From positions 1-5,741 of the forward strand of contig NZ_CALBEX010000188.1 in NCBI RefSeq assembly GCF_937889215.1: a stretch of DNA of 5,741 nt. The letters run 5' to 3'. The stretch comes from an uncultured Limnohabitans sp. GTDB lineage: Bacteria > Pseudomonadota > Gammaproteobacteria > Burkholderiales > Burkholderiaceae_C. Within the stretch, counting starts at the first letter, position 1, and every line of letters begins with the position of its first letter. The notes below the pieces were generated by a model. It was given only the letters and a program-made list of their open reading frames with translations, was not told the origin of the DNA and did not search any database. Position numbers and translations under genes: made by a program. Below are positions 234 to 4,575 of this stretch, piece by piece.

Positions 234-255
234 CCTGCGCATTACCGTGCGCAGG
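234..255. repeat. Perfect inverted repeat (hairpin) between ilvB and ilvH
   Basis: CCTGCGCA (234-241) and TGCGCAGG (248-255) are exact reverse complements separated by the 6-base loop TTACCG, giving an 8-bp, mostly G-C stem in the mRNA. No T-run follows, so it does not look like an intrinsic terminator. It lies 15 bases upstream of the ilvH Shine-Dalgarno sequence. Possible roles are blocking exonucleases, setting an RNase cleavage point, or tuning the subunit ratio; these are inference. Confidence 0.6.
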
Positions 256-270
256 GGAGGGCGGCGAAAA

Positions 271-274
271 GAGG
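271..274 (+). promoter_or_regulatory. Ribosome binding site deciding the ilvH start
   Basis: GAGG lies 8 bases before ATG 283. It selects that ATG over the in-frame GTG at 247, which would add 12 residues (RRGGRRKEESH-like) that have no counterpart in the family, and which lies inside the 3' half of the hairpin. Confidence 0.75.
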
Positions 275-282
275 AATCACAC

Positions 283-774
283 ATGAAACACATCATCGCT
301 GTATTGATTGAAAACGAAGCGGGCGCCTTGTCCCGCGTGGTGGGGCTGTTTTCGGCCCGCGGCTACAACATCGAATCTTTGACCGTGGCCCCGACCGAAG
401 ACCCCAGCCTGTCGCGCATGACCATCCAAACCGCGGGTTCGGATGACGTGATCGAGCAGATCACCAAACACCTGAACCGCCTGATCGAGGTGGTCAAGGT
501 GGTCGACCTGACCGAAGGCGCTTACACCGAACGCGAACTGATGCTCGTGAAGGTGCGCGCCGTGGGCAAGGAGCGCGAAGAAATGAAACGCATGGCCGAT
601 ATCTTTCGCGGCCGTGTGATTGATGTCACCGACAAGAGCTACACGATTGAGCTCACCGGCGACCAAACCAAGAACGACGCCTTTTTGGAGGCGATCGACC
701 GCAGTGCCATCTTGGAGACCGTGCGCACCGGTGCGTGCGGTATCGGGCGCGGCGAGCGCATCTTGCGCGTCTAA
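283..774 (+). CDS. ilvH: Acetolactate synthase small (regulatory) subunit
   Basis: This is the regulatory subunit of acetohydroxyacid synthase; it binds the large subunit, raises its activity and confers feedback inhibition by valine. The protein is 163 residues, the same length as E. coli IlvH as I recall it. The amino-terminal ACT domain covers about residues 3-78 and contains LIENEAGALSRVVGLF and RGYNIESLTVAPTEDPSLSRMTIQT. The carboxy-terminal ALS small-subunit domain covers about 84-158 (ELMLVKV, IFRGRVIDVT, GIGRGERIL). The positions equivalent to the valine-site residues of E. coli IlvH (N11, G14, S17, N29) are all present, so the enzyme is predicted to be valine-sensitive. It follows ilvB after 83 bases and precedes ilvC by 39 bases with no terminator, so the three genes probably form one operon whose promoter is left of the window. 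Some annotations call this family ilvN. Confidence 0.97.
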   Translation: MKHIIAVLIENEAGALSRVVGLFSARGYNIESLTVAPTEDPSLSRMTIQTAGSDDVIEQITKHLNRLIEVVKVVDLTEGAYTERELMLVKVRAVGKEREEMKRMADIFRGRVIDVTDKSYTIELTGDQTKNDAFLEAIDRSAILETVRTGACGIGRGERILRV

Positions 775-1948: not shown

Positions 1949-2764
1949 ATGAACAAAGCCAACGACACCGCTGAAGAGACAGAGGTCACAACGCCGGTGC
2001 GCAAACGCTCCAAGGGCATTTACATGTTGCCCAACATGATCACACTGGCGGCCTTGTTTGCAGGTTTTTATGCCGTGATCATGGCCATCAATGGCCGTTT
2101 TGATCTGGCCACGGTGGGCATTTTCAGCGCCATGGTGCTCGACAGCCTGGACGGCCGTGTGGCCCGCATGACGAACACCCAAAGTGCTTTTGGTGAGCAA
2201 ATGGATTCGCTGTCGGACATGGTGTCCTTTGGCGCGGCGCCGGCTTTGATCGCTTATGTCTGGACCCTCAAGGAGTTGGGTCGTTGGGGCTGGATTGCGG
2301 CCTTTGTTTACTGCGCTTGCGCTGCGCTGCGCCTGGCACGCTTCAATGTGAACACCGCAGTGGTGGACAAACGGTACTTTCAAGGCCTGCCATCGCCTGC
2401 TGCTGCGGCCTTGGTCATGGGCTTTGTGTGGATCATGTTCGACAACGCAGTGTCAGCCAAAGCCGTCTCTTGGGGCATGTTCGGGGTGTGCTTGTTCGCG
2501 GGCCTGACCATGGTCACCAATGTGCCTTTTTACAGCTTCAAGGACATGCACATGAAAAAGAGTGTGCCGTTCGCGACCTTGGTGTTGGTGGCCTTGGGCA
2601 TTGCGGCCGTCAACATCGATCCGCCTATTGTGGTGTTTGGTTTGTTTGTGGTTTACGGGCTCAGTGGTTATGTCATTTACATCTGGCGCAAGGCCAAGGG
2701 TCAACCCACCAGCATGATCAGCACCTCGACCGATGAGCCCGAAGAGCGCGGCTTGCACCAGTGA
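1949..2764 (+). CDS. pssA: CDP-diacylglycerol--serine O-phosphatidyltransferase (phosphatidylserine synthase), integral membrane type
   Basis: The enzyme joins CDP-diacylglycerol and serine to make phosphatidylserine, the precursor of phosphatidylethanolamine, in the inner membrane. The 271-residue protein carries the complete CDP-alcohol phosphatidyltransferase signature D65-xx-D68-G69-xx-A72-R73-x8-G82-xxx-D86-xxx-D90. The first 25 residues are polar and cytoplasmic-looking, then about six to eight hydrophobic segments follow (roughly 31-47, 53-66, 112-128, 150-165, 174-190, 206-222, 226-245), and a short polar tail ends in EPEERGLHQ. The next pattern NVPFYSFKDMHMKK (191-204) between helices suits the PssA branch of the family. 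This is the membrane (type II) family, not the peripheral phospholipase-D-like PssA of E. coli. The ATG start has AGGA (1938-1941) 7 bases upstream. It lies between the ilvC terminator and the leuA leader; I see no clear promoter in the 68-base gap and no terminator behind it. Confidence 0.95.
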   Translation: MNKANDTAEETEVTTPVRKRSKGIYMLPNMITLAALFAGFYAVIMAINGRFDLATVGIFSAMVLDSLDGRVARMTNTQSAFGEQMDSLSDMVSFGAAPALIAYVWTLKELGRWGWIAAFVYCACAALRLARFNVNTAVVDKRYFQGLPSPAAAALVMGFVWIMFDNAVSAKAVSWGMFGVCLFAGLTMVTNVPFYSFKDMHMKKSVPFATLVLVALGIAAVNIDPPIVVFGLFVVYGLSGYVIYIWRKAKGQPTSMISTSTDEPEERGLHQ

Positions 2765-2797: not shown

Positions 2798-2806
2798 TGC
2801 TACAGT
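2798..2806 (+). promoter_or_regulatory. Candidate extended -10 promoter for the leuA leader
   Basis: TGC-TACAGT (TG at 2798-2799, hexamer 2801-2806) matches the extended -10 pattern TGn-TATAAT with four of six hexamer bases. The standard spacing of six bases puts +1 at A2813, the first base of the leader ORF's ATG. No good -35 is visible at 16-18 bp upstream, as is tolerated for extended -10 promoters. Prediction by eye only. Confidence 0.5.
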
Positions 2807-2812
2807 TATTCC

Positions 2813-2866
2813 ATGAATTTCTCTTTGTCTGCACTACTGCTAGCGCCCCACGGGCGGGATGTGTAG
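2813..2866 (+). CDS. Leucine leader peptide of the leuA attenuator (17 aa)
   Basis: The ORF ATG 2813 to TAG 2864-2866 encodes MNFSLSALLLAPHGRDV. Leucines are at codons 5, 8, 9 and 10, encoded TTG, CTA, CTG, CTA. CTA is otherwise unused for leucine in every large gene of this window, so the two CTA codons in 17 are a marked departure and fit control codons read by a scarce tRNA. The ORF overlaps both the pause hairpin and the antiterminator strand, and the attenuator terminator follows 20 bases after its stop. There is no Shine-Dalgarno sequence upstream; the predicted transcription start is at or very near the ATG, so it may be translated leaderless. The expected role is to sense charged leucyl-tRNA through ribosome stalling; the peptide itself need have no function. 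Too short for homology, so the call rests on its position, codons and RNA structure. Confidence 0.82.
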   Translation: MNFSLSALLLAPHGRDV

Positions 2867-2896
2867 CGCACGCAAACATTTTCCCAAAAGGCCCGT
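2844..2896 (+). promoter_or_regulatory. Alternative RNA folds of the leucine attenuator (pause hairpin and antiterminator)
   Basis: Strand 1, CGCCC (2844-2848), can pair with GGGCG (2852-2856) in a tight pause hairpin with loop CAC. Strand 2, ACGGGC (2850-2855), can instead pair perfectly with GCCCGT (2891-2896), which is the 5' arm (strand 3) of the terminator. The pairing can extend with GGGA (2856-2859) to TCCC (2882-2885), leaving AAAAG bulged. Strand 2 repeats the sequence ACGGGC of strand 4 (2909-2914), so strands 2 and 4 compete for strand 3. A ribosome stalled on the Leu codons (2834-2842) would mask strand 1 and favour the antiterminator; one that reaches the stop at 2864 would cover strand 2 and allow termination. 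Structures were drawn by hand, with no energy calculation. Confidence 0.75.
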
Positions 2897-2927
2897 ATGC
2901 TGTCCGCAACGGGCCTTTTGCATTTTT
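2886..2927 (+). terminator. Attenuator terminator upstream of leuA
   Basis: AAAAGGCCCGT (2886-2896) pairs perfectly over 11 bp with ACGGGCCTTTT (2909-2919); three more pairs (TGC 2898-2900 with GCA 2906-2908) are possible past a bulged A. The T-rich tail is TTTTGCATTTTT (2916-2927). It lies 35 bases before the leuA start and after the leader ORF, with no other gene end close by except pssA 120 bases upstream, so it is best read as an attenuator and not as the pssA terminator. Confidence 0.88.
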
Positions 2928-2950: not shown

Positions 2951-2956
2951 CAGGAG
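2951..2956 (+). promoter_or_regulatory. Ribosome binding site deciding the leuA start
   Basis: CAGGAG ends 5 bases before ATG 2962. The in-frame GTG at 2956 shares its G with this site and so is an unlikely start. Confidence 0.8.
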
Positions 2957-2961
2957 TGAAC

Positions 2962-4500
2962 ATGACTGACAAACTGATTATTTTCGACACCACTTTGCGC
3001 GACGGCGAGCAATCGCCCGGTGCCTCCATGACCCGCGACGAGAAGCTGCGCATTGCACGTCAACTGGAGCGTCTGCGCGTGGACGTGATCGAAGCCGGTT
3101 TTGCGGCCAGCTCCAACGGTGACTTTGAAGCGGTGAAAGCCATTGCCGATGCCATCAAGGACTCCACCATTTGTTCGCTGTCCCGCGCCAATGACCGCGA
3201 CATCTCACGCGCCGCTGAAGCCCTCAAAGGGGCCAACAGTGCGCGTATCCACACCTTCATTGCCACCTCGCCTTTGCACATGGAAAAGAAGCTGCGCATG
3301 ACACCCGACCAGGTGTTTGAGCAGGCCAAGCAATCGGTCCGCTTTGCGCGCAATTTGGTGTCCGATGTCGAGTTCAGCCCTGAAGACGGTTACCGCAGTG
3401 ACATGGACTTTTTGTGCCGCGTCCTGGAAGCCGTGATTGCCGAAGGTGCCACCACCATCAACGTGCCAGACACCGTGGGTTATGCCGTGCCTGAGCTGTA
3501 TGGTGAGTTCATCCGCACGCTGCGCGAGCGCATCCCCAATTCCGACAAGGCCATCTGGTCTGTGCATTGCCACAACGACTTGGGCATGGCGGTGGCGAAC
3601 TCCTTGGCGGGGGTCAAGATTGGCGGGGCCCGCCAAGTGGAGTGCACCATCAATGGTCTGGGCGAACGGGCGGGCAACTGCTCGCTGGAAGAAGTGGTCA
3701 TGGCCGTGAAGACACGCCGAGACTATTTTGGTCTGGATGTGGGCATCGATGCGACCCACATCTTGGCCGCCAGCCGCATGGTCAGCCAAACCACGGGTTT
3801 TGTGGTGCAGCCTAACAAAGCGGTGGTGGGTGCGAATGCTTTTGCGCACGCCTCGGGCATCCACCAAGATGGTGTGCTCAAGGCCCGCGACACTTACGAA
3901 ATCATGCGTGCGGAAGATGTGGGCTGGTCCAACAACAAAATCGTGCTCGGCAAACTCAGCGGACGCAATGCTTTCAAACAGCGTTTGCAAGATTTGGGCG
4001 TCACACTGGACAGTGAAACCGAAATCAACAACGCTTTTGCCAAGTTCAAGGAGTTGGCCGATCGCAAGAGCGAGATCTTTGACGAGGACATCCTGGCCTT
4101 GGTCAGTGACGAAAGCGTGAGCACCGAAAAAGAGCAGTACGGTTTTGTCTCCATGGCCCAGCGCAGCGAAACCGGGGAGCGACCGCATGCTTCGGTGGTT
4201 TTTACCGTGGCTGGCAAAGAGGTGCACAGCGAGTCCGATGGCAATGGTCCCGTCGATGCCTCTCTCAAAGCCATTGAGTCGCACATCAAAAGCGGGGCTG
4301 AAATGGTGCTGTATTCGGTCAATGCCATCAGCGGCTCGACCGAGAGCCAAGGCGAAGTGACGGTTCGGCTGCAAAACAGCGGGCGCGTGGTCAACGGGGT
4401 CGGTTCAGACCCGGACATCGTCGTGGCCTCGGCCAAAGCCTACCTGAGTGCCCTCAATAAACTGCAAAGCAAGTCCGATCGGGTGGCCGCGCAAGGGTAA
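2962..4500 (+). CDS. leuA: 2-isopropylmalate synthase
   Basis: The enzyme condenses 2-ketoisovalerate with acetyl-CoA to give 2-isopropylmalate, the first committed step of leucine synthesis, and is classically inhibited by leucine. The 512-residue protein has the whole architecture. The TIM-barrel catalytic domain (about 1-275) opens with [17 protein letters not shown] (7-23), which includes the catalytic R13 and metal ligand D14. The metal-binding HCHND follows at 202-206, with H202 and H204, and [14 protein letters not shown] at 231-244. The linker subdomain contains [23 protein letters not shown] (282-304). The carboxy-terminal regulatory domain, about 390-500, carries [13 protein letters not shown] (426-438) and a [25 protein letters not shown] ending (481-501), so leucine feedback control is expected. 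It starts at ATG 2962. A leucine attenuator precedes it and an intrinsic terminator follows, so it is probably its own transcription unit with some read-through from pssA. No leuB, leuC or leuD is in the window. Confidence 0.98.
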
Positions 4501-4533: not shown

Positions 4534-4575
4534 AAAAGTCGCGTAAGTTATTGTTCTTGCGCGACTTTTTTATTT
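4534..4575 (+). terminator. Intrinsic terminator after leuA
   Basis: AAAAGTCGCG (4534-4543) pairs perfectly with CGCGACTTTT (4560-4569); TAAG (4544-4547) and CTTG (4556-4559) can extend the stem to 14 bp with one U-G pair and an 8-base loop. The T-run continues TTTTTTATTT to 4575. It begins 33 bases after the leuA stop, past an A+T-rich stretch (4501-4533) in which I see nothing else. Confidence 0.93.

Follow-up and report, generated by a model that had tools for sequence, protein, structure and literature searches.

A probable leucine attenuator with a predicted leaderless leader mRNA upstream of leuA in an uncultured Limnohabitans and its relatives

The 5,741-nt stretch of uncultured Limnohabitans sp. 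DNA analysed here (hereafter the window; contig NZ_CALBEX010000188.1 of RefSeq assembly GCF_937889215.1, an 82%-complete genome in 607 contigs) carries, in the gap 2764-2962 between a 271-aa ORF and leuA, an element at 2798-2926 that consists of an extended -10, a 17-codon Leu-rich ORF and a terminator. We consider it probable (roughly 0.88) that this element is a leucine attenuator of the ribosome-mediated type, with a leader mRNA predicted to be leaderless, and most likely it would switch leuA on upon leucine shortage. A first-pass annotation, made from the sequence alone, had proposed a classical leucine attenuator before leuA, and our results support that interpretation: its coordinates for all of the attenuator parts proved correct to the base when the sequence was re-read, and neither of the sequence findings that it had named as speaking against its proposal, i.e., a leader ORF or a strand 2/3 complementarity that is not conserved in relatives, was encountered.

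The surroundings of the element are given here from reading of the ORFs and from an Rfam search. Near the start of the window, ilvH RNA (RF02993) matched strongly at 212-279 (96.7 bits, E 7.4e-21), a match that overlaps the listed start of a 175-aa ORF (247) and stops just 5' of that ORF's in-frame ATG at 283, and the product of a 338-aa ORF that lies between the 175-aa and 271-aa ORFs on the same strand reads as ketol-acid reductoisomerase. LeuA itself is 97% identical to a protein in the Limnohabitans sp. Rim8 assembly, the closest among the best 80 of 588 loci. Directly 3' of leuA, at 4534-4569, there is a T-tailed hairpin of 14 pairs, which likely marks the end of a single-gene leuA transcript. 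A weak hairpin followed by a T-run was also seen at 2770-2790, 3' of the 271-aa gene and 5' of the leader promoter; it is perhaps the terminator of the upstream gene, and two related loci (L001 and L003) have, by eye, short inverted repeats at about the same place.

The coordinates of the features are collected in Table 1. The 17-codon leader ORF that had been annotated runs from the ATG at 2813 to a TAG at 2864-2866 and is rich in leucine, its Leu codons being TTG at codon 5 and the run of three at codons 8-10. The pause hairpin that had been placed within this ORF was recovered by folding as a candidate. The hexamer ACGGGC (2850-2855) of strand 2 is, as claimed, complementary to GCCCGT (2891-2896) of strand 3, and an exact copy of it recurs in strand 4 at 2909-2914. 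The 11-bp terminator was likewise found, as contiguous pairs of 2886-2896 with 2909-2919, and it can be lengthened by a C2885:G2920 pair and by an inner TGC/GCA helix past a bulged A, so that the hairpin spans 2885-2920; a T-run at 2916-2919 lies within strand 4 and a second one follows at 2923-2927. By sequence and by fold, then, an intrinsic terminator stands 5' of the structural gene leuA. Folding of the window also brought out two pairings that the first-pass annotation had not described, namely a longer antiterminator, in which GGGA (2856-2859) can pair with TCCC (2882-2885), and an outer 1:2 stem, in which CTAC (2834-2837, Leu codon 8) pairs with GTAG (2863-2866, the stop) in the MFE structure. 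The fold of 2813-2935 had a z-score of -3.60, and its energy was equalled by one of 200 dinucleotide shuffles.

Table 1. Positions in the window of the leucine attenuator and of its neighbouring genes
Feature	Position	Strand	Basis and remarks
175-aa ORF	247-774	+	ORF list; in-frame ATG at 283
271-aa ORF, putative pssA (name from the first-pass annotation)	1949..2764	+	ORF only
Extended -10, TG-C-TACAGT	2798..2806	+	sequence; 6 nt before leader ATG; absent from the first-pass annotation
Leader ORF, 17 codons + TAG, MNFSLSALLLAPHGRDV	2813..2866	+	sequence, relatives; no Shine-Dalgarno
Strand 1, 5' arm of outer 1:2 stem (TTTGT, TGC, CTAC, GC)	2824..2840	+	MFE
Control codons 8-10, CTA CTG CTA (Leu)	2834..2842	+	conservation and modelled stalling
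Apical 1:2 hairpin CGCCC-CAC-GGGCG, pause-hairpin candidate	2844..2856	+	fold
Strand 2, ACGGGC + GGGA, antiterminator 5' arm	2850..2859	+	sequence, fold
3' arm of outer 1:2 stem, overlapping the TAG stop	2861..2876	+	MFE
Strand 3, TCCC + AAAAG bulge + GCCCGT; terminator 5' arm from 2885	2882..2896	+	sequence, fold
Strand 4, ACGGGCCTTTTG, terminator 3' arm	2909..2920	+	sequence, fold
leuA Shine-Dalgarno, AGGAG	2952..2956	+	sequence
leuA, 2-isopropylmalate synthase, predicted regulated gene	2962..4500	+	ATG at 2962; name by reading

Conservation was followed in the best 80 of 588 leuA loci, the titles of which include Limnohabitans, Acidovorax, Curvibacter, Polaromonas, Rhodoferax, Hydrogenophaga, Variovorax, Comamonas, Ramlibacter, and Rubrivivax. 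Using a strict rule (an ATG ORF of 14-20 codons whose stop begins 20-45 nt before a GCCCG...CGGGC core), a leader was found directly upstream of leuA in 54 of these 80 loci, which together with the window gave 55 aligned leaders. The 26 loci that failed the rule comprised 18 with a LeuA2-like gene upstream, where the fetched sequence covers LeuA2-like coding directly upstream of leuA, three with a leader that the rule missed (a GTG start or another length), three with a short upstream sequence (<260 nt), and two (L020 and L042) that have no such leader upstream of leuA for no visible reason. The predicted conservation of the leader ORF and of its Leu codons was thereby borne out, the first control codon being Leu in all 55 aligned leaders (CTA in 50 and CTG in five) and the mean leucine share of the leader residues being 0.26. 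The control codons are thus those for the end product of the presumably regulated gene, as the gene downstream encodes LeuA.

The choice among Leu codons is extreme. CTA accounts for 129 of the 246 Leu codons in the 55 leaders; over the first 1530 nt of leuA at the same loci, eight of 2044 Leu codons are CTA. Since CTAC of control codon 8 pairs with the GTAG of the stop in the MFE structure, and TAG is the stop codon in 46 of the 55 aligned leaders, the preference for CTA might reflect base pairing in the 1:2 stem rather than the sensitivity of a rare-codon tRNA. When the 134 leaders with an extended -10 were sorted by stop codon, however, the CTA share was similar with TAG (201/404, 0.50), TAA (28/57, 0.49), and TGA (73/162, 0.45), against a background of 12/3795 for the same set. 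Because the share hardly depends on the stop, pairing with the stop codon does not explain the bias, and we regard that explanation as an unlikely one. In Salmonella, changing the control codons from CUA to CUG lowered the sensitivity to leucine shortage (PMC1183508, citing Carter 1986).

The extended -10 motif TGnTAnnnT occurs within 30 nt upstream of the leader ATG in 54 of the 55 aligned leaders (none in L074), at a spacing of 6 nt in 30 of them, 7 nt in 22, 8 nt in one, and 18 nt in one (L038, where the motif lies 6 nt from an upstream in-frame ATG); hence the spacing is 6-7 nt in 52/55. A Shine-Dalgarno match of at least 4 nt precedes the leader ATG in none of the 55 leaders and the leuA start in 50 of the 55 loci, and the base before the leader ATG is C in 48 of 54. 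With sigma-70 geometry, a gap of 6 nt after the -10 places +1 on the A of the ATG, and transcription is therefore predicted to start at A2813, the first base of the leader ATG. Since the extended -10 stands 6-7 nt before the ATG in 52/55 leaders and no Shine-Dalgarno sequence accompanies it, the leader mRNA is predicted to be leaderless. A strict rule for such leaders (an ATG with a -10-like hexamer 5-8 nt upstream and 10-40 codons with at least three Leu and an LL pair) was satisfied in 132 of 151 related loci, 129 of them with TGn, and failed in 19; on the reverse strands it was satisfied in 0/151 and in shuffled sequences in 3/1510. The window (L106) is one of the 151 loci, and some of their organisms are also represented among the first 80, so that the two sets are not independent, and as the display of leaders for the 151 loci favoured an extended -10, its spacing counts are partly selected and the strict, controlled count is preferred. 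In five loci (L066, L207, L234, L238, and L240) the leaders are longer, 27-36 codons with a Leu-rich end, and there too the -10 hexamer stands 6-7 nt before the ATG.

A simple promoter scan, for which two hexamers are required, gave no site anywhere in the window, a result that fits a leader ORF translated without a Shine-Dalgarno sequence from an RNA whose main start lies further upstream, the terminator being real all the same. We give this reading little weight in view of the spacing of TGnTAnnnT and the C before the ATG, and also because start-site mapping in Burkholderia cenocepacia reports that leaderless genes are immediately preceded by a TA-rich motif (PMC4603805). leuA is not named in the main text of that paper or in that of the start-site paper on C. 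metallidurans. Leaderless leader peptides are on record elsewhere, in trpL of S. meliloti (PMC7298713) and leuL of S. lividans (PMC8079986).

The 55 leaders were used to build a covariance model, R1. With matches taken at E <= 0.01, of which weak ones may be chance, it matched 172 of 200 sampled genomes of the window's family, representing 111 of 126 genera, and was without a match in the other 28. Among the family loci fetched from these matches, 143/145 encode a LeuA homologue. In the 151 loci with a LeuA homologue downstream of the element, that homologue is LeuA (at least 80% identity) in 80 and LeuA2-like (<40%) in 71. Many relatives have a LeuA2-like gene directly before leuA, including the 18 of the best 80 loci mentioned above, and in L087, G199, and G115 (L113, L116, L256, and L257) the attenuator stands before that first, LeuA2-like gene. 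L087 has a 271-aa ORF, related to that of the window, followed by the element and then by the LeuA2-like gene; in G199 and G115 the element lies ~1.85 kb before leuA, and the sequence just before leuA (L256 and L257) reads as LeuA2-like coding.

These data bear on an alternative in which the hairpin simply ends transcription of the gene upstream and the short ORF is a product of chance. Short ORFs are common in intergenic regions, and the hairpin does lie downstream of the ORF that ends at 2764 and would also stop its read-through. A chance frame is nevertheless hard to reconcile with the recurrence of a Leu-rich ORF behind a -10-like hexamer in 132/151 loci and 3/1510 shuffles, with the extreme choice of CTA, or with an element that precedes the LeuA2-like gene where that gene comes first (71/151 loci; L087). 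It also conflicts with the behaviour of strand 2, which is kept in different reading frames: GGGC occurs in 54 of the 55 leader ORFs, 52 of which share a frame for it while L077 and L079 use another, and among the 31 second-set leaders with an RVR/RAR end, 24 have CGGG in a frame other than the window's and seven lack CGGG. Because GGGC/CGGG is kept across frames, it is the RNA and not the peptide that is conserved at strand 2. (In-frame GGGC necessarily encodes Gly GGG, so the count of that residue is given no weight here; the argument rests on the comparison of frames.) On ORF recurrence, codon bias and strand 2 frames we reject the chance-ORF explanation, which we hold to be very improbable.

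Another reading accepts the leader and makes its products the point: the main output would be a ~110-nt leader sRNA and a peptide that act in trans, with attenuation as a by-product, as the terminated leaderless trp leader of S. meliloti acts in trans as an sRNA and a peptide (PMC7298713). The N-terminal leader residues and the sequence outside strands 1-4 vary among relatives, and conservation follows the Leu codons and the strands, a pattern that speaks against trans-acting products as the main function and makes this reading improbable.

Pairing was examined in the 54 distinct leaders. The first-pass annotation had asked for compensatory changes in strands 1-4, and these were present in the terminator and the 1:2 stem and lacking in the nearly invariant 2:3 helix. 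In the terminator, 99.8% of pair cells are paired and three pairs show changes on both sides, while five pairs are invariant and coincide with the GCCCG...CGGGC core that had been searched for, so that by construction they are not independent evidence. The outer 1:2 stem is paired in 88.9% of cells (six pairs counted) and shows both-side changes at two pairs, in five sequences and in one, and the apical 1:2 hairpin is paired in 71.8% (four pairs counted); the 1:2 stems were taken from the MFE structure of the window and then counted in relatives, a choice that favours them, and the RNAalifold consensus of the 55 leaders contains the terminator only, with the 1:2 stems absent. Together, the terminator and 1:2 stems gave a covariation score of 0.215, against 0.137 +/- 0.006 for shuffles and at most 0.076 when the pairing was slid. 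Two of the five covariation measures were within the shuffles' reach, i.e., pairs with both-side changes (seven against 4.9 in shuffles, reached by 55/500) and further pair types (17 against 15, reached by 61/500). The complementarity of strands 2 and 3 is kept in relatives, as anticipated, with 94.8% of cells paired; none of the pairs changes on both sides, and this level of pairing was reached by 39 of 500 shuffles. The 2:3 helix is conserved, not covarying.

The comparison with Rfam leucine-leader models that had been suggested gave no match up to E 5. The best match at the element was Thr_leader (E 0.011), whose 30.2 bits fall below the gathering score of 55, and no leader family matched up to E 0.1 in seven related loci. 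Membership in the known Rfam leader families was accordingly rejected.

The folding switch was modelled with a mask that covered the RNA as far as 12 nt past the control codon, the footprint lengths being assumed. In RNA that ends at strand 3, the 2:3 helix was not the MFE structure in 42 of the 55 leaders when no ribosome was present (it won in 13), and it was the MFE structure in 55/55 when the ribosome was placed at the first or second control codon. The 1:2, 2:3, and 3:4 pairings are mutually exclusive, and within this model and its assumed footprint, stalling frees strand 2. For the window, the probability of the 2:3 helix was 0.97-0.99 with the ribosome at codons 2-7, 1.0 at codons 8-10, 0.05 at codon 11, and 0 at 12-19, and it rose again at modelled positions 20 and 21 past the stop (0.57 and 0.95). 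The averages over the 55 leaders were 0.57-0.94 for codons that precede the run (n 50-55) and 0.97-0.98 for the three positions of the run itself; they fell to 0.40 one codon later and then to 0.02, with 0.29 and 0.64 at the two modelled positions beyond the stop. Since the probability drops directly past the run, the Leu codons extend just as far as stalling would be of use, and since codons 2-7 of the window also give high values, specificity rests on which codons are slow. In the full window leader at equilibrium, the terminator won under every mask, the stalled-ribosome one included, and only the truncated, co-transcriptional form switched; the switch must therefore be kinetic. Classical attenuators likewise switch kinetically.

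We propose that RNA polymerase would start at or next to A2813, giving a transcript that opens with the leader AUG. With leucyl-tRNA plentiful, a translating ribosome would reach the stop and cover strand 2, leaving strands 3 and 4 to form the terminator. Were leucyl-tRNA short, above all the reader of the rare CUA, the ribosome would stall at codons 8-10 and cover strand 1; strand 2 could then pair with strand 3 ahead of the synthesis of strand 4, and RNA polymerase would read on into leuA. If no ribosome were present, strand 1 would pair with strand 2 and the terminator would form. Of this scheme, the parts in the sequence, their conservation, the codon bias and the modelled change of fold are shown, and from these the start site, translation, stalling, termination and leucine response are inferred.

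Beyond the family, R1 at E <= 0.01 matched 58 of 300 genomes of the order, and E < 1e-7 was reached outside the window's family only in three genomes of one genus (G207, G329, and G467). Eighteen loci with weak matches (L121-L138) encode no LeuA and were treated as chance. From leuA matches in other families of the order, 26 loci and a further 40 chosen from the rest of the matches were taken, 64 of them with 300 nt or more of upstream sequence. Of these 64, 34 have a Leu-rich ORF immediately behind a -10-like hexamer and, by that rule, 30 have none (controls: 0/64 reverse strands, 7/1280 shuffles), and a T-tailed hairpin follows the ORF in only four of the 34. A looser finder gave 35 other-family leaders between L260 and L322 (L262 and L267 left out), of which 30 have LLR near the end and 33 a hairpin at the ORF end, against 568/1750 mononucleotide shuffles. 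These ORF-end hairpins are GC-rich, with arms that differ together between loci (GCGCC/GGCGC, TGCCC/GGGCA), and the 30 nt past the stop average 40% C and 13% G, the whole regions having 31% C. Such leaders are perhaps leaderless leucine leaders with another, Rho-dependent terminator, and we offer this as a lead. The two loci left out, from one other family, have the same design as the window, with GGGGC in the ORF, GGGGC/GCCCC in place of the window's 2:3 core, and a terminator AGCCCCAGC...GCTGGGGTT, which suggests that strands 2, 3, and 4 change together between families.

More tentatively, and as a possibility that we think doubtful at present, the element may be a promoter-selective attenuator and the Comamonadaceae-type form of an order-wide leaderless leucine leader whose terminators differ elsewhere. 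If it is promoter-selective, only RNA that begins at the leader AUG would be translatable and hence responsive to leucine, and read-through RNA from upstream, in which the leader ORF is internal and has no Shine-Dalgarno sequence, would always be terminated. If the form is order-wide, many other Burkholderiales families would end their leader in an LLLRxxR-like motif and use a different, probably Rho-dependent, terminator.

For a large betaproteobacterial family, the element provides a leucine attenuator that is complete, conserved, and open to test, and that no Rfam family matched in the searches made. Its predicted leaderless start shows how an attenuator could operate without any 5' UTR, and it could make the switch ignore read-through from the neighbouring gene. 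The relatives that have a leaderless leucine leader, mostly without a T-tailed hairpin, open the evolution of terminator type to study. In the literature searched, no betaproteobacterial leuA leader was found; the 2010 survey by Lopatovskaya, Seliverstov and Lyubetsky, which reportedly treats attenuators across bacteria, may contain one.

In kind, the attenuator is already known from the leu leaders of enteric bacteria, Shewanella, and actinobacteria. The enteric leu leader has a Shine-Dalgarno sequence and a 5' UTR. It shares with the window a run of Leu codons in a short ORF before leuA, rare CUA codons, mutually exclusive folds, and an intrinsic terminator, and differs from it in length (28 codons in enteric leuL against 17) and in that the window's leader is predicted to be leaderless, has no Shine-Dalgarno sequence, and gave no match to Rfam leucine-leader models; moreover, leuA of the window is followed by the T-tailed hairpin and not by a leuBCD run. 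The E. coli leuL peptide has 28 aa with four Leu (PMC6123439), the S. typhimurium leader has three CUA control codons (PMC1183508, citing Carter 1986), and putative leader peptides and terminators precede branched-chain amino acid genes in various Gram-negative species (reviewed in PMC6123439). The leuA attenuator of Shewanella resembles the window in having a Leu-rich leader, an anti-antiterminator, an antiterminator, and a terminator before leuA, with some compensatory changes; the main text of that paper makes no mention of betaproteobacteria, Burkholderia, or Ralstonia (PMC2659441). In its predicted start the window resembles Streptomyces lividans leuL1 and leuL2 and other Actinobacteria, in which a leaderless transcript starts with a Leu-rich leader ORF, and it resembles LeuL2 (before leuS) also in the hairpin and U-stretch behind the leader; unlike the window, LeuL1, the S. 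lividans leuA leader, and other actinobacterial leuA leaders lack a typical intrinsic terminator (PMC8079986), and most Actinobacteria have a LEU pseudoknot before leuA (PMC1262725). Similarly, the trp attenuator of Sinorhizobium meliloti (trpL, rnTrpL/peTrpL) has an RNA that begins at the leader ATG and combines a short peptide with a terminator; it concerns Trp rather than Leu, and its products act in trans (PMC7298713). What appears to be new among these systems is the extended -10 placed 6-7 nt before a leader ATG that has no Shine-Dalgarno sequence, an arrangement from which a leaderless leucine leader is predicted.
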